A stretch of 30,245 bases of DNA. Source: a bacterium. GTDB lineage: Bacteria > UBP7 > UBA6624. Of the stretch, positions 10,483 through 25,834 are shown one piece after another. The position numbers were made by a program, and so were the translations under genes. The notes beneath the pieces were generated by a model that was not told the DNA's origin, made no database searches, and worked only from the letters and a program-made list of their open reading frames with translations. The first letter of the stretch is position 1. Every line of letters starts with the position of its first letter. The stretch covers positions 1 through 30,245 of the forward strand of contig PBAU01000006.1 in the NCBI GenBank assembly GCA_002716355.1, written 5' to 3'.

Positions 10483-13400
10483 TTAATTCTGTGTACAGAT
10501 AGTAAATGCTTGATCAATTAAGTTTGTACCGCCTCCACCAGCAAATTTACAAACACCGAGTAAATTATTCTGCCAAGCAGCTAACTGTATTCTTGGAAAA
10601 GTTGTAAAGAACAAACCAGCACCACCTGGACTAATCTGACACCCTTGAGAAGAACAAGCTTGCAAACCATTGAAACTAATGTTGTTTGGACCATGACTAC
10701 CATTTGCATCTATGTACATTCCATTAGTTATAGAGTCTTCAAGACCAACTTGGAAAAGCATTGGGCTTGACTCCTGTATCCAAACCATGGCTTCTGAAGA
10801 TTCTCCACCATACTTCAATACAGTATTCCACATTCTGCTTATTATGCTGCTTCCTGGATTATCTGAAAAAGGTGTTTGAGGGTACCAATCACATATTGGA
10901 TCACAATCTTCATCTTCATCTGCGGTTGTACCTTCATACTGATTCACTGGATGACTTAACCAAGGACCGAATGGGTTACATGCTCCTGTAGCTGCTCCTC
11001 TTTGCTCAAGCTGCGCATCAAGCGGGCCACCAAAACCTTCTGAATAGCCTGTTCCTCCACCTTGTGTTCCAGCAGGAACAACAACATCTGTTTCAGCACA
11101 TAACGTATCAACATTCAACCAGGATTCCCAGAAATCAAGAGTTCTATTGTAAAAACGGACAGCACCCCAATCTCCAGGGCCTGCTGCCTCATCGTACAAA
11201 CCAAGATTTGAATTTGGATAATCGATTTTAGTACCAAGAAGAGGGTCGTGAATACTTGTTATAAAGCTATTATCTGCAATAAACAAATTATGGTTATGGA
11301 AATCAATTGCACCTTGACTCCAATCAACATTCTCTGGTTCATCTCTCAATTTGATAATTGTCGAATCGATCTGCAAGTAAACAGGTGAAAAACTACCAAA
11401 ACCTTGTGCATACTCTTCATAAGATCCTGAAGGAAGAACCAATATGTCATTTGTAATCACATAAGGTATAGCATTCGTGTTTCCTCCACCGCCAGTTTGG
11501 CCATTCAAAACACCCAAAAGAACATCTGGATTTACCTGTCCAGGATAAGTGTTTGTAGTAGCAACTGCCTCTGGGTCATTAGTTGCAGTGGCTGTATCAT
11601 CGGTGAATGAGTCATTGATAACCCAGCCATAAATCTCAACAGCATTTCTTATACATGGTGCATTCGCTCCATCACAAGGATCAGCATCACTGAGAGTTTT
11701 TATAAATTGATTGTTTGCAGCTCTTGCAGGGTTGGCAACAGAGTCACCTACCTCAACATTGATTGGAATTCTCATTTGATAAGGGCTATTGTCTGTAAGT
11801 GTAAGTGAAGATAATCCTGGCTGAGTTGCACTGATCTTTCCTGAGTCGTTTCCATCAAGAACCAAATCAGCTGGATTCATGAAGGATGTCAAAGGTGTAG
11901 GGATACTTTCAGGCCTGTCGACATGAACATATACCCCATGACCAACTTGTGTGAATTCCAAACATGGATTTCCAGCAGGCACAGTGATCTCTGGACAATC
12001 TGTTGGAAGAGGTTCGTTATTAAGAACTAAAGCTGAATTGTTAGAGATTTGAGTATTAGTAATGGAAGGACTTGCATGCCAAACCAAAACACCTCCACCA
12101 GTGTTTCCTGAAATTGTATTATTGGTCAAGACAGGTCTTGGGTCACCTGAATTATTAAGCATATTCCTAACAGCAAGGCCTCTCCAGGTATTATTTTGCA
12201 TTGTGCTGTTATACATTTCACCTTTGTTAGCGGTCCAACCACCAGGGCAGCTGTCTATCGCCTTCATCACAAAATCAACACCATGGCCATCATCCCAGCC
12301 CTTTCCGTAATAACCGTTGTTATTAAACTCAACACCATCAACCAAGAAATCCAGGGTATTTTCAAGCCTCATTCCACCCAATCCATTATTAAGAACCTGC
12401 AATGTTCCTGTCAAACCACTTGAAGATATAACAGGGAAGGGTTGCTCTATGCTGCAAGTGCCATCATGGCCAGCTTTAATGTAGATTCCCCAACCTCCAT
12501 TATCTTTTGATATCAATCCTGTGATTGTCGGGTCTTGAGTCCTTTCAATAAAAATACCGTCACATTCATCTGTCACTCCTGGCTTTAATGGAGTTCCAAT
12601 CAATGAATTAGAACACCTTATACCATTACCTTCCACTATAGTTTCATTTCCAGCAGAACCAGTAATCTTAAAAGGTGTTTCGGACATATGGATACCTCGT
12701 GCATAACTATGATGAACGTTAGAACCTTCCTTTATGTGTAAATTAATATCCATCAATCCACCCTGCTTGAAGCTAGCTATTCCATGACCACCTGAATAAG
12801 CAAATTCAGCATCTGATATTCTTATTTGAGCACCAGGTGCAGATTCCCCTTGAAGAGTAAGGTTTCCTGCCCTCTGATTTGGAGAGGGTCCAAAAATTGA
12901 AGAGTTTTGATTTGAACCACCAAAAAGAACCTTTATATTGTTAAGATCAGCATCTATTCTGGTTCTTAAAGCAAGAGAGCCCCAGAAAGATTTTTCATAA
13001 ACTCCGTCAGAATCACCATCAAGCCTCAGCCAATTATCATCACTTTCATCAGCAACACTTAGATCTGAAGGACTAGGACCCATGCTCATAAGATTCCTAT
13101 TTGTATCAATTGCTTCAGGGAAGCTTGTGAGGAATGCAGCATCACAGCTGAAAGTCAATGAATCAACATTTCCATTGCAATCATCAGATATGCTTGTCCA
13201 AACTACCGGATCAACTGCATTACCATCAACTTGAAGATAGCCATCAACAATCATGCTGACTTCCCTGTTGTCAACACCATCTGACTCACCATAAATGAAA
13301 GGGTCTCCCATCTTGACAACTACGCCGGCTTCAATCTTCATATGAACATCTATGTTATCTACAGCACTATCATCTCCAACCCTTATTGAATCAGTAACAA

Positions 13401-16400
13401 CATAAGGCATTGGCTGTACATCAATATTGCCAGAATTATCAATAATGTTAATAGTATTGTTGTTCCAGGTTGTATCAAGACCAACAACTCTGTTTCTTAT
13501 TTGGCCTCCTCTTACACCAAAACCAGGATATTCTTTCGTTCCACTTGCAGGAATCTTATTAACTGAATAACTATTATTTATCAAGAAATCACTGCCAATA
13601 CCCATATCAGCAACTATCGGATAAAAACTATTAAAGTTAAATGAAGAATCTCTAATGATTGGAAAAGAACCTGTAAAGTTTTCATTATCCAAAATCACGA
13701 TTCCATTTTCAGCAGAATCTTCAGAAATCAAATGAGAAACAATAACTGATTCAGCTGCATCAAAAACTATATTGCCTTGATCAAGAATATCACCTTTTGT
13801 AGAACCCCTATTACCAGCACCAGCATACCTTATACCCAAACCAAATATTCTTCCACAAGGTTCCACATTTGAAACATTCTCAGCAACAGGATGATTAAAA
13901 GGGTAAGAATCAGGACAACTTAAAGCATCCTCATTTGATACAAAATAAACACCCTTCCAATCACCACGAGAACCTTCAGAAAGCCCTGAGCCATCTGTAT
14001 CACATCCTCCACCTGCGCAAGATGTAATATCTGTCATATCATCAAAGTAACTGGTGAAAACAACATCTGCAAAACCAGCTCTTGGAGTATCACTTGCATC
14101 AACATCTGGGTTATTTAAATTATCAATCGGATTGCCTGCAGCAGTTAACGAACCATTAACTGTAATTCCAGATACCTGATTGTCAAACTTAGCAACCAAA
14201 CCATAATCCAAAATAAGTTCAGCACCATTTCCAACAGTGATATGAGAATCAACAAGATAAGGAGTAACCCTGCTGATATTTGCAGCATCAATTACACCAG
14301 GTCCACCATTTGGAGTACCACATGATGGATCCCAACTGCCAGAATTGTTATTTGAGAAACACATTGTTGACCATTTGACAGGCTGTGTTAATTCTGCAAT
14401 CTCTCCTTCAGAACAAATTCCAGGAGCACATGTTCTATCCAAAGTATGTATATGCACTGCTGAAACAGTATTTGAAAATTGGGAATCTCCTGGAGCAGGA
14501 ATTCTGTTTTGGTCTAAACCAACAGAATCACAGCCGTTTAAGAAAGATACGCCTGTTACTGTATTCTCCCTTCCACATAAGGATGAAAAATGAGGTATTG
14601 ACAAAGGGGCCTTTTGATTTCTGAAGAAAGAATTCCTTTTGACAGCACTTCTGACTACATCATCAATAATTGACCCATCTTCTAAAGTAACATTCAACAG
14701 GCTTGGCGCACCACCTCTATACTGAAGACCATAACCTGAACTATGCTCTATAACTGAATCCTGAACCCTTGCAAAAGCACCATCTATTTTTACAGCTGAT
14801 CCAAGACCGGAACCGGCATACCTTATAGAAGCATTGTTGATTAAGCTCTTTTTAGAAGTTGATGTTATTTCTATACCTCTCCAAGATCCAGGTTGAGCAG
14901 AGCTAGATGAACCATCACCATTTGTATCACCTTCTGACAATATGTCATCTTCACTAATTGAACTAAATACAACTTCAGCAAGATTTCCGTTTCCGTCTGA
15001 AAGATAATACGGATCGCCTTGTACTGGAATTACACATTGTTCGTTTGTTTCATCCCAATAAGAACCAATACAGATGGTTCCAGCAGCTGAAATTCCACCA
15101 CCAGAAGAATCCAATTTAACCAAAACACCTGGCAGGATTGAGAATATACCTGAAACACCATCTCCATCAATATCCTCTTCTACTGACATATCCTGATCTA
15201 CAACATATGGCATTGGTGTTGGGGAGTTTACTGTTTGATCACCAGCATGATCACCTCTATCCATAGGTTTAAGCATTGCTAGCTCATTATCTGTAACTCT
15301 CCCTAAAAGCATTCTGATCCCATAAAAAGAATCTGATGCTGCAGTAGCTAAACATTGACCAGTTGCCTCATCCCAATCACAAAATTTATTATCATTCGTT
15401 TCACATGGATCACCCGGATTCTCTCCAGGGAAATTAGCACCTGTACAAAAACCAGGATCAGATCGATCATTTTGTATATCAGAAATACCTGTGTAGCTTG
15501 GAACCTGAAGAACAGGATAAGTACTTAAACTAGTAAAAATATTATCTCTAACAGTTGGATAAACATTGGGTTGTCCTGTGATTGAAATACCGTATCCGCC
15601 AGCATCCATAATTGTATTGTTTTGAACAACAACACAATTATTCTTCAGGTCTTCTTCTTCACTAGAAACTGGATCTAAAGGGTCACCCCAACTCACAACC
15701 TGCAAGTCCGGGTCATCACAATCAACCTGGTCACTACCCTCTCTCAAAGAAGTACTCTGCACCTGAACCACACCTAAAGAAGGGTCAGATCCACCATACC
15801 TTAAAACAGTACCTTCAACATAGCCAAAAGAACCTATATCAAACTTAACAGCACCCCATTCTCCAGGACTGCCTGTTGATATACCATCTTTATTTGTGTC
15901 ACATATTGGATGTCCTGAACTATTTACATCCGAACAATCAACAATACCTCCTCCAGGAACATTAAAGACACCTGCGAAATCATCATTGTAAGAAGTTAAG
16001 TAAACAGTATCGTCTTGACTATCACCAATAGCCAACCTTCCACTTGAAGATATACCGGAAGCAGTTGTCAAAAACTTAACAACAGTTCCCCCTTCAAGTC
16101 TTAAACTGGCTCCAGCTTCAACTGTTATTTGACCATCAACAACATAAGCACCAACAACAGCAGGCCATCTAACTTCACCCCAGAAATTAGGACAATTTGT
16201 GAAAATGTTTGGACAATCCTGAAGCAAAACAGAAAGAGCTTGAGGTATGTTGCCACCTTCTATCTGGATAGAATCACCATCTTCGTTTCCACTAAATGCA
16301 GGCAAAGAACCAGTATTGTTCAAATCCTTCAAACCACTAAATGCAGGATGCATGATCATTCCAAAATCAGTACTATTGGAAACAGTCAAATCACCACTGT

Positions 16401-18507
16401 TGATTGTTGGTTGAGTAATCAATGGGCTTCCTGTAACAATTAAACCAGTACCGTTTGAATGGTCTATGTTCAAACCATCAATAACCAATGAAGAACCATT
16501 TGCATCACCATCATTATTCAGGTCGACACCATCCTCCAGCTCTCCAGTAGATTGGATAATTAAACCTGCTTCCAGGGCAGGACTAACTATATCACTAATA
16601 CCACCACCATATCTAATAGTCAAATTTTCCACAAAACCAGTTGAACCAGCCGAGAACTTCAACTGGCCCCAATCCCCAGCGCTAGCACTAGGAGCATTTT
16701 GTGGCTGGCCTGGACAATACCCATTGTCAACGCCAGGTACACCATTGCCAACAGTTACAGGTTCAAAAATAACCCCATTAGAGCCAATTGTCGTCAAGCT
16801 TCCTGTAACATCCACCCCTACAGGAGGAGTTCCTGATGGATCCATAAGCCTAACCCTTAGAGGGTCATTGTTGATATTAGTTGTATCTAAAGTCAAATTG
16901 CCCTTAATCTCAAAATCCTGGTTTAAGAAATAAGGAGAGTTAGCAACATCCCATATTGAATCGCCCAATAAATCCTCTGATACTAAAGTACCGCAGTTCA
17001 GCAATTCAAAATCAACCTCATTTGAATCGAAATTTGTAATTGCAGTATTGGCATAAGCTTTTACCTCAGAAGATCCAGCAATAGGATTGAATGAATTGTT
17101 TCCTCCAACTTTAATGCTAGGTAAATAAGTTGCCTCAGCAACACAAGACCAACCATCTGCATCATTACCATTATTGTCACTACAAGCAACCTGACCATCA
17201 ACATAAAAATCAACTGAAGTTACATTGGAAACAGAAGTGTCAACAACCGCAGAAAAAGTCACACATCTAAAACCATTTGTTACATATTGTCCTGATTGAG
17301 TGTCAAACCATCCTGGTTCACTATCATCAGCAGTTCCCTCTATACAATCAGGACCATAATTAACCAAAACAGGAGCAATAATGTCGTTGTTTTTAGGGGA
17401 GGTTACAAGAACTTGCTTATCAGTGCCTCCACTAGATTCATTATTGATATCAACAGTTCTTGTATCCTGAGCACTTTTAATACCATCAGTAACCTGAGCT
17501 ACTAACTGATAAGTTCCATCGCCTGCTGTTGGATTAACCTGAGTGTCCCAATTTGATTGCCATCTAGAAATGTTCCAAACATCAACACCATCAGAAACAA
17601 CAGAATCCAAAGGATTCTCAAGAACCAAAAGTCCATTTGGAGCATTTGGATCCTGACACTCTAGATCACTAGGCAAGAAATCAAATTTTGTACATTTAAC
17701 AATGCTAGACCTTGGGTCAGAGTCCAAATCTCTAAACTTAACTATCGAACCTTTTGTAAATTGTGCAATTAATGCACCGCTTCCTGAATCGAAACTTTGA
17801 GTTGCATCAACAAGAAAAGTTGTTGTTGTTGCACTACAGTCCCAAGCTTGATTTGGATCACAGATTACAAAAGATTTATGAGAAGATCCCAATTGTTCGG
17901 TTGCAAAAAACTCACTATCAACCGCCAAATTAACATCAGTACAAACACTTGTACCGAAACATCTTTGACCTTCTATTGTTCCACTTACAGAATAAGTTCC
18001 AGCCAAAGGGCTTGGCAAACTGTTGATAGATATAGCCACCCCTACTTCGAAATCTTTTTCCAAGGATTCTGAATTACCAGAACCTTCGCCTACAGCTGTA
18101 ACTTTAATATCTACATCCTGAGACAAAAGAGGAGCATGCCAGTAAACAACAGAACCATTTCCTCCAGAAGTTTCAATATAAGATTGACAATTTGCAATAT
18201 TGGTTACACCTATGCTGTTTCCATACATCAAGAAACCTGGATCTATTGATGCTGAAGAATTTAAGCACCATTGATATGCAATAGCATTATTTGCAGTAGC
18301 ACTGATCTCATATCTTCTACCAGGGGACAAAGACGAACTTGTTGCAATTGTTGGCCCATCTGTCAATTCGACATCAGCAAAATTATTGCCGCCGCCTCCT
18401 CCACCTCCACTACCTGAAGAATTCCCTCCAGAAGAATCATCACCGCCGCTACAAGCGATAGCGCTGAATCCAAAAATAACTAATAAAAATAAAAATCTTT
18501 TGTTCAT
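10483..18507 (-). CDS. Giant surface lipoprotein with repeated beta-helix modules
   Basis: A single 2674-codon frame. Residues 1-19 are a lipoprotein signal (basic start, hydrophobic core, lipobox AIAC, Cys19), with Ser at +2 and then a Ser/Gly linker including a run of seven Gly, consistent with an outer-membrane anchor. About 45-515 look like Ig-like or all-beta domains with several Cys. From about 520 I find six related modules, opening with PY(V/L/F)-type segments near 521, 787, 1097, 1413, 1699 and 2345. Each continues through G..VVKF- and VxFTSxxDD-like strands, then (D/S/F)WG-like and IRYGG-like motifs, typical of right-handed parallel beta-helix (pectin-lyase fold) proteins. About 1930-2150 adds NN-G-rich helix coils. 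No catalytic residues, sortase motif or autotransporter barrel is seen. Adhesion or polysaccharide binding are possible roles. The ATG has AGGAGG 5 nt upstream. Base composition is visibly richer in G+C than its neighbours. Confidence 0.85.
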   Translation of the reverse strand: MNKRFLFLLVIFGFSAIACSGGDDSSGGNSSGSGGGGGGGNNFADVELTDGPTIATSSSLSPGRRYEISATANNAIAYQWCLNSSASIDPGFLMYGNSIGVTNIANCQSYIETSGGNGSVVYWHAPLLSQDVDIKVTAVGEGSGNSESLEKDFEVGVAISINSLPSPLAGTYSVSGTIEGQRCFGTSVCTDVNLAVDSEFFATEQLGSSHKSFVICDPNQAWDCSATTTTFLVDATQSFDSGSGALIAQFTKGSIVKFRDLDSDPRSSIVKCTKFDFLPSDLECQDPNAPNGLLVLENPLDSVVSDGVDVWNISRWQSNWDTQVNPTAGDGTYQLVAQVTDGIKSAQDTRTVDINNESSGGTDKQVLVTSPKNNDIIAPVLVNYGPDCIEGTADDSEPGWFDTQSGQYVTNGFRCVTFSAVVDTSVSNVTSVDFYVDGQVACSDNNGNDADGWSCVAEATYLPSIKVGGNNSFNPIAGSSEVKAYANTAITNFDSNEVDFELLNCGTLVSEDLLGDSIWDVANSPYFLNQDFEIKGNLTLDTTNINNDPLRVRLMDPSGTPPVGVDVTGSLTTIGSNGVIFEPVTVGNGVPGVDNGYCPGQPQNAPSASAGDWGQLKFSAGSTGFVENLTIRYGGGISDIVSPALEAGLIIQSTGELEDGVDLNNDGDANGSSLVIDGLNIDHSNGTGLIVTGSPLITQPTINSGDLTVSNSTDFGMIMHPAFSGLKDLNNTGSLPAFSGNEDGDSIQIEGGNIPQALSVLLQDCPNIFTNCPNFWGEVRWPAVVGAYVVDGQITVEAGASLRLEGGTVVKFLTTASGISSSGRLAIGDSQDDTVYLTSYNDDFAGVFNVPGGGIVDCSDVNSSGHPICDTNKDGISTGSPGEWGAVKFDIGSFGYVEGTVLRYGGSDPSLGVVQVQSTSLREGSDQVDCDDPDLQVVSWGDPLDPVSSEEEDLKNNCVVVQNNTIMDAGGYGISITGQPNVYPTVRDNIFTSLSTYPVLQVPSYTGISDIQNDRSDPGFCTGANFPGENPGDPCETNDNKFCDWDEATGQCLATAASDSFYGIRMLLGRVTDNELAMLKPMDRGDHAGDQTVNSPTPMPYVVDQDMSVEEDIDGDGVSGIFSILPGVLVKLDSSGGGISAAGTICIGSYWDETNEQCVIPVQGDPYYLSDGNGNLAEVVFSSISEDDILSEGDTNGDGSSSSAQPGSWRGIEITSTSKKSLINNASIRYAGSGLGSAVKIDGAFARVQDSVIEHSSGYGLQYRGGAPSLLNVTLEDGSIIDDVVRSAVKRNSFFRNQKAPLSIPHFSSLCGRENTVTGVSFLNGCDSVGLDQNRIPAPGDSQFSNTVSAVHIHTLDRTCAPGICSEGEIAELTQPVKWSTMCFSNNNSGSWDPSCGTPNGGPGVIDAANISRVTPYLVDSHITVGNGAELILDYGLVAKFDNQVSGITVNGSLTAAGNPIDNLNNPDVDASDTPRAGFADVVFTSYFDDMTDITSCAGGGCDTDGSGLSEGSRGDWKGVYFVSNEDALSCPDSYPFNHPVAENVSNVEPCGRIFGLGIRYAGAGNRGSTKGDILDQGNIVFDAAESVIVSHLISEDSAENGIVILDNENFTGSFPIIRDSSFNFNSFYPIVADMGIGSDFLINNSYSVNKIPASGTKEYPGFGVRGGQIRNRVVGLDTTWNNNTINIIDNSGNIDVQPMPYVVTDSIRVGDDSAVDNIDVHMKIEAGVVVKMGDPFIYGESDGVDNREVSMIVDGYLQVDGNAVDPVVWTSISDDCNGNVDSLTFSCDAAFLTSFPEAIDTNRNLMSMGPSPSDLSVADESDDNWLRLDGDSDGVYEKSFWGSLALRTRIDADLNNIKVLFGGSNQNSSIFGPSPNQRAGNLTLQGESAPGAQIRISDAEFAYSGGHGIASFKQGGLMDINLHIKEGSNVHHSYARGIHMSETPFKITGSAGNETIVEGNGIRCSNSLIGTPLKPGVTDECDGIFIERTQDPTITGLISKDNGGWGIYIKAGHDGTCSIEQPFPVISSSGLTGTLQVLNNGLGGMRLENTLDFLVDGVEFNNNGYYGKGWDDGHGVDFVMKAIDSCPGGWTANKGEMYNSTMQNNTWRGLAVRNMLNNSGDPRPVLTNNTISGNTGGGVLVWHASPSITNTQISNNSALVLNNEPLPTDCPEITVPAGNPCLEFTQVGHGVYVHVDRPESIPTPLTSFMNPADLVLDGNDSGKISATQPGLSSLTLTDNSPYQMRIPINVEVGDSVANPARAANNQFIKTLSDADPCDGANAPCIRNAVEIYGWVINDSFTDDTATATNDPEAVATTNTYPGQVNPDVLLGVLNGQTGGGGNTNAIPYVITNDILVLPSGSYEEYAQGFGSFSPVYLQIDSTIIKLRDEPENVDWSQGAIDFHNHNLFIADNSFITSIHDPLLGTKIDYPNSNLGLYDEAAGPGDWGAVRFYNRTLDFWESWLNVDTLCAETDVVVPAGTQGGGTGYSEGFGGPLDAQLEQRGAATGACNPFGPWLSHPVNQYEGTTADEDEDCDPICDWYPQTPFSDNPGSSIISRMWNTVLKYGGESSEAMVWIQESSPMLFQVGLEDSITNGMYIDANGSHGPNNISFNGLQACSSQGCQISPGGAGLFFTTFPRIQLAAWQNNLLGVCKFAGGGGTNLIDQAFTICTQN
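11445..16947 (-). repeat. Six-module protein repeat array inside the giant lipoprotein
   Basis: Module openings, read from PYFLN, AYVVDGQITV, PYVVDQDMSV, PYLVDSHITV, PYVVTDSIRV and PYVITNDILV, fall near residues 521, 787, 1097, 1413, 1699 and 2345. The later landmark in each is DWGQLKF, EWGAVKF, SWRGIEI, DWKGVYF, FWGSLAL or DWGAVRF, about 90-140 residues on. Modules diverge strongly between these landmarks, so this is old protein-level duplication, not a DNA-level tandem repeat. The fifth module is about twice as long because of extra beta-helix coils. Confidence 0.75.
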
Positions 18508-18513
18508 AGTTGC
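18508..18513 (-). promoter_or_regulatory. Start region and strong ribosome binding site of the giant lipoprotein
   Basis: On the - strand AGGAGG precedes the ATG at 18507 with CAACT as spacer, so the core itself covers about 18513-18518. It is the best Shine-Dalgarno match in the window and fixes the start of a very long gene. Confidence 0.8.
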
Positions 18514-18545
18514 CTCCTAGCAAATCAATACAAAATTGTCAAATA

Positions 18546-18587
18546 AGTATAACCAATTATTGTATACATTAAAAAGATAAAAGGCAA
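18546..18587 (-). promoter_or_regulatory. Candidate promoter of the giant lipoprotein operon
   Basis: On the - strand, TTGCCT (18582-18587) is followed after 17 nt by TACAAT (18559-18564), a fair sigma-70-type pair, giving a leader of about 45 nt. TATACT (18546-18551) is an alternative -10. The -35 lies within the T-tract of the trpS terminator. The sites are consensus matches only. Confidence 0.35.
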
Positions 18588-18611
18588 AAACTTCAACCCT
18601 TTAGGGTTGAA
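18578..18611 (-). terminator. Intrinsic terminator after trpS
   Basis: On the - strand the arms TTCAACCCT and AGGGTTGAA (18592-18611) form a perfect inverted repeat with a tight loop, followed by GTTTTTGCCTTTT. It begins 20 nt after the trpS stop and separates the trpS unit from the giant lipoprotein unit. In the + direction no T-tract follows, so it should act on the - strand only. Confidence 0.75.
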
Positions 18612-22555: not shown

Positions 22556-25500
22556 TTAAAAAGCGCCGGAAAACCTTAAATACAAACCTTCTTGATTATC
22601 TGGACTCAAAAACATATCACTTGCGCCTCCATCAGAATAACCAATAATGACTCTCAAGCCATTAGTGATTGACTTTCCGATTTCAAACCTATGACCAGAT
22701 TCACTGATATCACCGTACATAATCTTATCTTCAGCTGAAAATGTCCAATCTTTATACTGGTATCCAATCTTCAATGACTTAATAGCAATATTTTCGCCTC
22801 CATTAGCATTCAAAGAAGATCTCGCACTATACCTGCCCGTAAAGATCAAAGAATTTGGTTGCCAGGATGCTGAGTATGTTTGTATATTATGGTCTGAAAA
22901 TTCAGTCCAACCATTGTCTCTAATTTCTAAAGCTGAACCACTAATAGAAAGATTGTCAGAAGGCGTCCAAACTAAAGATGAAGCAAGTTTCGTGTACTCT
23001 TTTAGAGTATTATTCAAAGAGGTCTCTCTTTTTCTATCAGTAGTAAAAGAATACTTTGTTGCATCATTGATAGATTTTGTAATTCTTGATTCAAGAGTTT
23101 TATGCCTGTGCGCATTATTAAAAGGATTCAGGTATTGATTAGCACCCCAATTCACATTCCATCCATAAACTGAATGACTTCCACCAAGGTTATACCCTTC
23201 CCACTGTTCGTCAGATACATCATTTCCAGTTAGGACAATATTTGCATTTATATTATTTGAGGAATTTGGTTTCCAATTCAGATTCAAATCCTCTCTAAGA
23301 TCAACCCATTTTCCTTGCTCCTCTATAACGTCAGTCACAGAAACAGACAAAGCGCCATTTATGCTTTGTTCATATTTGAACATTTGTAACTTATGCTTTG
23401 GATTGCTCCAATTTGATCGAACGTCACGTGATAACTTCAAATCTAAATCTTTTGTAAAAAAGTTCCCCTTCATGTTAAGTTCAGAATAATGCCTCCAGGA
23501 ATTTTGCAACTTTCTTAAATTCCAATTACCTTGGTTTGATGAACCAGAAAATTTAAACTCTCTTTCATCTAAAATGCCGCTATTGTAAGCTTTCTGAACA
23601 TTCGTATTTCTAAATTGAAACTTCAAGCCATTGCCTAAATCTTTATTAAAGTAAGTTGTAAGCTTTTCTTCTAATAAGTTAGGGTCTTTACGAGATTCTT
23701 TTGAGAGAGTAATACGCCCAAAACCACTAACATTTTTAGAAAGATCAATTTTGGATCTTGTGTAGGCATTTTGACTCAAGGTATGTTTTTCTTTATAAAG
23801 AGAAGCATTCGCACCAAAAAAACCTAAAAAGTTTGAATTACTAAAACCAATTTCTGTTATTTTCTTATCTTGACCAACCCAAACATCCTTTGAGCTAAAT
23901 CCTTTTTGCATATTTGAATTTGAATAAGAAAAATTACCTATATTTCCAGCATTCAAAGAAGCATTGAATTTATCAGATTGATTCCAGTCCTCCCCTTGCA
24001 AGGTTTCAACATGTTCGAAAGTTACTCCACCATCTTCAGAAATGTACTCACCCGTATCGGAAGATTTTGTTCTAGCAGTTTGATAACCTAAAGAAAAAGA
24101 AGAACCTTTAAAATTTATATTCTGACCTTCAAGCTCGTAATCACCGTTCTGTCGGGCTTCATTAACTTTAGTTATGCCAAAATTCCAGCCATTTCCTAAA
24201 TTATGCTTTATGTTTGTTGTCCATGTTCCTCGATCAGATTCTTGAAGTATCCAATCATAAGAAACATTGATAAAAAGATCTTCTCCATTTAAATATCCGT
24301 ATTTTTCTTGAGCAATCTCCTCTAAAGGGTAAAGGAGCCTAATTGTTCCGTCTTCATGTACATAATCGATAGATTCATCAAGCTTCCAAGAACCTGCATG
24401 ACTTCCATCAAATCTATAAACGTCTAGATGAACCTTGATTGAATCCTGCTTTCTCTCTATGTTTCTTAACCTGTAAACAAAACCATTATTATTTTTAAAT
24501 ATATCTTTAGTTTTTTGCACTGGTTTTTCTGAAAGCGTTGATTTTAGAGAAGTTTGGTTTTTACTCCAATTCAACTCATAACCTTCAAAAGACAAATCAT
24601 GTCTTGCAAGAGATAAACTGGTATCTTTTGATTTTACATTTCCATATCTTAAGCTAGTGTTTGAAGAGCTCAAACTCCAATTAAAGCCAGAACCATGACT
24701 GTGTGAACTTGATGAAGCATCTGAAAAAAGATAATTATGTCTAGAGAAATCTAACCCTTGGTTCCAGTTTAATGATCTATCGTTCCAATCCCTCAACCCG
24801 TCAGAATAAGATAGTTCCATTTCTAAGCCTGAATAGTTGCCTATATACCTAAATGAACCTTCAGCAACATCCGAAGAGCCAAGAGTGAATGATCCAATTA
24901 CTCCAAAACCTGTTTTTCTTTGCCATTTTTCCTGACTTTCTGAAAGAGGAATGTTTAAATTTGCTAGACTACCAGGCAAAACCAAAATATTTTGGACCTC
25001 ATAACCAAAAGCAGGCTTCCATCCTTCAGGAACTCCAGAAACAACTTCAACAACCCTAGAACCAGGGGCTAAACCATCAATATGAAATCTCCCATTTTTA
25101 TCAGTTCTAACAGTAGTGCCATTTTCAAACTTTAAAAGTACACCAGCAGCACCTTTTTCATTTTCATCCTGGTGTCTATTTTCATCTGAATCAAGCCAAA
25201 CTTTACCTGATATGACACCTAGAGAAAATAAACGATCAGGTGAAATCTGTATGTTTACATTAGTTTTATTTGATATGACAGTATGCGAATCAGTTAGAAC
25301 AAACATTTCTAGTGTTTTAGATCCATGTTGAGTTAAATCATAATTTTTCAAATCAACCTCAGTTGAATAAACATCCCCAGCATTCATGTTTGGCAGAATA
25401 ATTTCAGAATCTTGATCATCAAGCTTTACACCACGTGGTGCATTAAATGACAAAACAGAACCAAGAGGGAGACCATTTGGAGCAGTGACTGTAATTGCTA

Positions 25501-25834
25501 AAGTTAAAGATTCACCCATTACAAGTTGTGTTTTTTCGGGAGTAACGACAATACCAACATCATTAAAAGTCAAAGCATCCCAATCGATGGACATCTTGGG
25601 TTGTAAATACTGATAAGAAACTCCATTGCTATTTTTAATCTCAGCTATACATGAAACACCTTCTTGCACCTTTTCTTCTGAAATCTCCTGTCCAGATTTT
25701 GGATCTAAGCATCTAATTGAAGATTCTTGAATAACAGCCGAAAAATGTGCTTCTGAAAAACGTAATCTTTCAGGTGTGCTTTCTGGATTATTCAGAAAAG
25801 CAAAAAAAGCAAAAAAACTAAACAAAAAAACCAT
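22556..25834 (-). CDS. Outer-membrane protein: Ig-like and SdrD-B-like domains plus beta-barrel-like region
   Basis: The 1092 residues start with a short hydrophobic segment (1-14), likely an export signal though without a basic start. An uncharacterised part with two Cys (42, 62) leads to an Ig/DUF11-like domain (about 92-200). Residues 206-298 form an SdrD-B/carboxypeptidase-regulatory-like beta-sandwich: GVISGKVWLDSDENRHQDEN, then GVLLKF and TDKNGRFHIDGLAPG. From about 310 to the end the sequence is a long succession of amphipathic, aromatic and Ser/Asn/Trp-rich strands, ending in LYLRFSGAF with terminal Phe, as in BAM-inserted barrels. A large porin, usher-like or secretion channel is possible. 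No TonB box or POTRA domain is evident. ATG has AGAAGG 5 nt upstream, with an in-frame TAG just before. Confidence 0.75.
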   Translation of the reverse strand: MVFLFSFFAFFAFLNNPESTPERLRFSEAHFSAVIQESSIRCLDPKSGQEISEEKVQEGVSCIAEIKNSNGVSYQYLQPKMSIDWDALTFNDVGIVVTPEKTQLVMGESLTLAITVTAPNGLPLGSVLSFNAPRGVKLDDQDSEIILPNMNAGDVYSTEVDLKNYDLTQHGSKTLEMFVLTDSHTVISNKTNVNIQISPDRLFSLGVISGKVWLDSDENRHQDENEKGAAGVLLKFENGTTVRTDKNGRFHIDGLAPGSRVVEVVSGVPEGWKPAFGYEVQNILVLPGSLANLNIPLSESQEKWQRKTGFGVIGSFTLGSSDVAEGSFRYIGNYSGLEMELSYSDGLRDWNDRSLNWNQGLDFSRHNYLFSDASSSSHSHGSGFNWSLSSSNTSLRYGNVKSKDTSLSLARHDLSFEGYELNWSKNQTSLKSTLSEKPVQKTKDIFKNNNGFVYRLRNIERKQDSIKVHLDVYRFDGSHAGSWKLDESIDYVHEDGTIRLLYPLEEIAQEKYGYLNGEDLFINVSYDWILQESDRGTWTTNIKHNLGNGWNFGITKVNEARQNGDYELEGQNINFKGSSFSLGYQTARTKSSDTGEYISEDGGVTFEHVETLQGEDWNQSDKFNASLNAGNIGNFSYSNSNMQKGFSSKDVWVGQDKKITEIGFSNSNFLGFFGANASLYKEKHTLSQNAYTRSKIDLSKNVSGFGRITLSKESRKDPNLLEEKLTTYFNKDLGNGLKFQFRNTNVQKAYNSGILDEREFKFSGSSNQGNWNLRKLQNSWRHYSELNMKGNFFTKDLDLKLSRDVRSNWSNPKHKLQMFKYEQSINGALSVSVTDVIEEQGKWVDLREDLNLNWKPNSSNNINANIVLTGNDVSDEQWEGYNLGGSHSVYGWNVNWGANQYLNPFNNAHRHKTLESRITKSINDATKYSFTTDRKRETSLNNTLKEYTKLASSLVWTPSDNLSISGSALEIRDNGWTEFSDHNIQTYSASWQPNSLIFTGRYSARSSLNANGGENIAIKSLKIGYQYKDWTFSAEDKIMYGDISESGHRFEIGKSITNGLRVIIGYSDGGASDMFLSPDNQEGLYLRFSGAF

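Follow-up and report, generated by a model that had tools for sequence, protein, structure and literature searches.

A giant lipoprotein with a probable Ig-like front part and six diverged modules of predicted beta-helix type in a small bacterial genome

Surface giants with beta-solenoids have been described, namely Giant1-4 of Apilactobacillus kunkeei and the SRRP adhesins, and their solenoid is thought to bind glycans; adhesive, non-enzymatic beta-solenoids are thus known from giant proteins encoded by a 1.5 Mb genome (PMC12863079). The protein analyzed here resembles them, by description alone, as a giant beta-solenoid protein of a small genome. Giant1-4, however, are Gram-positive proteins whose single solenoid is N-terminal and precedes a long rod of alpha-helical repeats (PMC12863079), whereas a lipid-anchored protein with six solenoid modules is proposed here. 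A second comparison is provided by pectate lyase PL3 of C. bescii, AlgG and phage tailspikes, which have the right-handed parallel beta-helix in common with the model of module 2 and superpose on it with Z-scores of 11-12.7. These proteins are enzymes or phage receptor-binding proteins, unlike the role proposed here, and the giant protein shows only 10-16% identity to them, no family match and no charged residue common to its modules. Finally, relatives that match PF13229 in unrelated genomes (L014, L015 and L012) possess the same PYVV-type head, V[IV]KF strand, TSxxDD and DTNGDG loop, GDWxxI and IRYGG, in several copies per frame. The copies of the giant lipoprotein have diverged further, are rich in Cys and are interrupted by long insertions, with a lipobox and Ig-like stalk in front of them.

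The window, which is the whole stretch of 30,245 nucleotides that was analyzed (contig PBAU01000006.1 of assembly GCA_002716355.1), contains the gene on its minus strand, a detail absent from the sequence-only reading. That reading had claimed an uninterrupted 8-kb frame filling more than a quarter of the window; both claims held, as 2674 residues are encoded without a stop and the gene occupies 26.5% of the window. The gene is present in one copy in its own genome (1.26 Mb, 87% complete). Its G+C content is 39.7% compared to 35.9% for the genome, probably because of its Gly/Asp/Ser-rich composition. Behind trpS comes a terminator-like hairpin, and further on an AGGAGG ribosome-binding site lies immediately 5' of the ATG. 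The features are as follows.

10483..18507, minus strand: whole gene of the giant lipoprotein, 2674 aa (single open frame, single-copy, ortholog in another genus)
18508..18611, minus strand: intergenic start region (consensus matches only)
18611-18592, minus strand: terminator-like hairpin behind trpS (consensus match only)
18587-18559, minus strand: promoter-like site before the giant gene (consensus match only)
18451..18507, minus strand: residues 1-19, signal peptide with lipobox and predicted lipidation at Cys19 (sequence; Cys19 kept in ortholog; LspA in genome)
18373..18450, minus strand: Gly/Ser-rich tether, residues 20-45 (sequence)
16978..18372, minus strand: residues 46-510 in front of the modules, with probably three Ig-like domains (Big_7 below the cut-off in this protein and the ortholog, which are 29-49% identical here)
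16150..16935, minus strand: module 1, residues 525-786 (self-similarity, landmark pattern)
15211..16149, minus strand: module 2, residues 787-1099, modeled as a right-handed beta-helix (AlphaFold2 pTM 0.63; VIA Z 10-12.7)
14263..15210, minus strand: module 3, residues 1100-1415 (self-similarity, landmarks, weaker Beta_helix match)
13408..14262, minus strand: module 4, residues 1416-1700 (self-similarity, landmark pattern)
11467..13407, minus strand: module 5, residues 1701-2347, double length (main Pfam Beta_helix match at 1984-2158, landmarks, profile comparison)
10486..11466, minus strand: module 6, residues 2348-2674 (landmarks present, weak sequence similarity; conserved Cys-rich C-terminus)
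Module heads: PYFL525, AYVV787, PYVV1100, PYLV1416, PYVV1701, PYVI2348
VVKF-type landmarks: RVRL551, VVKF809, LVKL1129, VAKF1438, VVKM1730, IIKL2384
WG-type landmarks: GDWG611, GEWG882, GSWR1207, GDWK1515, FWGS1841, GDWG2445
RYGG-type landmarks: RYGG632, RYGG903, RYAG1229, RYAG1560, LFGG1861, KYGG2565

The lipobox claimed earlier (SAIA-C19) is present, and sequence comparison showed that its cysteine is retained as VVS-C in the ortholog from the metagenome-assembled genome NIOZ-UU106. Signal peptide, conserved lipobox cysteine and an encoded LspA, as expected of a bacterial lipoprotein, were all found. The genome further encodes Omp85, LolC/E-like proteins and a secretin accompanied by pilus genes, and therefore is that of a cell with two membranes in which the giant protein can be lipidated and sorted. 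In the C-terminal third, 14 of the 18 cysteines are conserved in the ortholog, which fits an oxidizing extracytoplasmic site. The conserved lipobox and these envelope genes support a predicted lipid-anchored, extracytoplasmic protein. The proposed Ig-like front part depends on a Big_7 match that is below the Pfam cut-off (E 0.024), with a similar match in the equivalent region of the ortholog (E 0.023); three Ig-like domains probably fill residues 46-510. Matches to antibody scFv entries in a PDB sequence search were discarded as these arise from the Gly/Ser tether.

Each module presents, in order, [PA]Y.., a [VIL]xK[FLM]-type strand, GxW and [RKL][YF]xG. All six landmark sets noted previously were recovered, and the combined ordered pattern matched the protein four times compared to none in 2000 shuffles. 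In pairwise Blast comparisons, modules 1 and 2 scored 54.3 bits, modules 2 and 4 50.8, modules 2 and 3 32.3, and modules 3 and 5 30.4, against a maximum of 27.7 bits in 900 shuffled comparisons. Modules 3 and 4 scored 26.6 bits, a value reached by 0.2% of shuffled comparisons. The head of module 5 was joined to modules 1-4 by profile comparison (E 8e-6). Module 6 reached at best 23.5 bits, as did ~1% of shuffles, and its profile link spans 11 columns of a short GDWGAV segment (E 0.01). Thus, self-alignment placed the relatedness of modules 1-5 above the shuffled background, but that of module 6 is weak. A uniform period of 270-320 residues, which had been anticipated, was not observed: module starts are spaced by 262, 313, 316, 285 and 647 residues, and module 5 is of double length. 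DTNxDG-type loops, as in calcium-binding turns, occur at 870, 1194 and 1503. The duplicated modules of predicted beta-helix type have diverged almost beyond recognition with order and landmarks persisting.

A profile search against beta-helix families, proposed as a check of the fold, returned Pfam Beta_helix (PF13229) within module 5 (1984-2158) at 39.5 bits, compared to a cut-off of 25.9; the NIOZ-UU106 ortholog scored 45 bits, and modules 2 and 3 gave weaker matches to the same family. The para_beta_helix repeat TIGR03804 reached 10.3 bits, below the NCBIfam cut-off of 19.45. NosD (PF05048, cut-off 23.6) did not match the giant protein and scored 20.6 bits, also below the cut-off, in the ortholog. 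A PDB profile search with the module alignment yielded no credible match. The AlphaFold2 model of module 2, which is based on the alignment of the five aligned modules, has a pTM of 0.63 with pLDDT ~80 in the landmark strands, and in this model module 2 is a right-handed parallel beta-helix. VIA-align superposed it on right-handed beta-helices with Z-scores of 10-12.7 over 139-208 residues, the partners including pectate lyase PL3, AlgG, phage tailspikes, PL6, GH87, GH110 and VexL. Foldseek also ranked beta-helix proteins at the top, weakly (best E 0.077), with many polysaccharide-acting enzymes among them. Modules 5-6 modeled from a two-sequence alignment gave a mean pLDDT of 25.6, and their fold accordingly rests on sequence; a tandem alignment of modules 1-2 with modules 3-4 was too unreliable for folding. 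We infer a beta-helix for the modules other than module 2. Overall, the earlier proposal of diverged beta-helix modules is supported by the Pfam match, by module self-similarity and by the model of module 2.

The structural neighbors of module 2 mostly act on polysaccharides (PL3, AlgG, PL6, GH87 and GH110), and module 5, which carries the main Beta_helix match, has conserved His, Asp and Arg. The giant protein might then be a surface polysaccharide-active enzyme with at least one module, most likely module 5, functioning as a lyase, epimerase or glycosidase while the others bind. However, the invariant columns of modules 1-5 are Tyr, Gly and Trp alone, without a common charged residue. This pattern points to a scaffold rather than to an active site repeated along the protein. 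Moreover, no lyase or hydrolase family scored in Pfam or NCBIfam, and the gene adjoins tRNA synthetase and other housekeeping genes instead of sugar transport or PUL-type genes. An enzymatic role is considered unlikely. The earlier reading saw no enzyme active site; the conserved residues leave room for one putative catalytic site in module 5.

Two of the structural matches of module 2, AlgG and VexL, are periplasmic. As a lipobox alone is no proof of surface exposure, the giant protein could face the periplasm as an outer-membrane lipoprotein that organizes the envelope or handles exported polysaccharide in the manner of these proteins. Default lipoprotein sorting keeps the protein on the periplasmic side, and none of the genes beside the giant gene was recognized as dedicated to surface export. 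Nevertheless, a rod this long (more than 2600 residues), together with its Ig-like stalk, would be unusual in that compartment, and this arrangement is judged improbable. Among known export routes, neither an autotransporter (type V) barrel nor a C-terminal sorting domain of Type IX secretion cargo was matched in Pfam or NCBIfam, in line with the previous assessment; the C-terminus reads ...FTICTQN.

The ortholog in NIOZ-UU106, the one searched genome that represents a different genus of this family, is represented by its two ends on two contigs, which are about 43-47% identical to the giant protein (43% and 46% for the two ends). The Black Sea origin of NIOZ-UU106 is taken from the NIOZ-UU series, not from the record of this genome itself (PMC8359478). 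The N-terminal end adjoins trpS and genes for an M50 protease, a CCA transferase, a trmL-like protein, a hexapeptide protein and a beta-barrel; the C-terminal end is near serS, an ornithine cyclodeaminase-like gene, asnS, holA, purD, dnaB and rplI. This gene order, including trpS - giant gene - serS, is identical in the window and in NIOZ-UU106, and the giant gene is therefore vertically inherited in the lineage. In a genome of the same genus (G001) the giant gene is absent, which is uninformative as that genome also lacks trpS and serS. The searched set comprised three genomes of the lineage, the next level being the same domain. A scan of genome contigs with the full protein found nothing, and with the alignment matched the NIOZ-UU106 ortholog alone. 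The module profile detected relatives in five of ~140 unrelated genomes (E < 1e-6), some with three or four module copies in frames of 1500-2000 residues, and these match PF13229 and NosD strongly. The architecture thus is known and widespread, though patchy. A phage fiber was dismissed as unlikely since no relative occurred in viral contigs, plasmids or PHROGs.

Elsewhere in the window (22556-25834, minus strand) an SdrD_B domain occurs in a 1092-aa protein that also has a probable outer-membrane barrel with the end ...LRFSGAF; this protein is kept in the same neighborhood of NIOZ-UU106 (L008:7266-10511). Just past the window on the same contig, C6:33860-38671 contains PilM/N/O-like genes together with a secretin whose inserts are very rich in Gly, with masked (N) bases in C6:30246-33500. 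A cluster of type IV pilin-like proteins, one of 1288 aa with a pilin-type start, lies at C11:78159-87119.

The longest frame of the genome encodes a 4137-aa lipoprotein (C3:317072-329485, minus strand, loci L073 and L074) with the lipobox FSAC and PKD and BNR-type domains. The region C3:111696-123562 (minus strand, loci L063 and L064) encodes a 2033-aa lipoprotein of repeated bacterial Ig-like domains and, nearby, a 1638-aa protein that by eye resembles a subtilisin-type protease and contains the same ECKLDDGEWESCTSPKTY-type repeats. The 4137- and 2033-aa lipoproteins have Gly-rich or Ser/Gly-rich starts similar to that of the giant lipoprotein. The giant gene accordingly is one of a class and not a singular oddity, and comparison with these lipoproteins and with the multi-copy module proteins elsewhere makes it less of an exception than was implied earlier. 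These two lipoproteins also weaken the case for one dominant coat protein. A role as an S-layer-like or sheath protein that tiles the outer membrane without a specific ligand would agree with the size of the giant protein, its elongated repeats and its one gene copy, and with vertical inheritance in a fixed housekeeping neighborhood, but self-assembly is putative and such a coat seems unlikely. That the protein is a lineage-specific, vertically inherited coat of a small-genome bacterium from a sparsely sampled phylum, and as such a new non-enzymatic six-module beta-helix sheath, is very improbable.

The structural invariants, the two-membrane envelope and the precedent of beta-solenoids (PMC12863079) therefore favor a rod-like lipoprotein of the outer membrane that would bind glycans, particles or neighboring cells, an adhesin or binding rod to which a probability of roughly 55% is assigned. 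The signal peptide would be cut at Cys19 and this residue lipidated to give an outer-membrane lipoprotein, with the tether and Ig-like domains forming a stalk. Six diverged right-handed parallel beta-helix modules would then build an elongated rod in which catalysis probably was lost or never present, and which would offer a multivalent surface for glycans, particles or neighboring cells. We infer that the protein sits in the outer membrane facing outward, that it is rod-shaped and that it functions in binding; the giant surface fiber or sheet envisaged earlier is plausible. The giant lipoprotein leaves knowledge of large multi-module beta-helix proteins unchanged, and adds a well-bounded, orthology-supported giant lipoprotein of surface type in the small genome of a deep lineage of which three genomes were searched.
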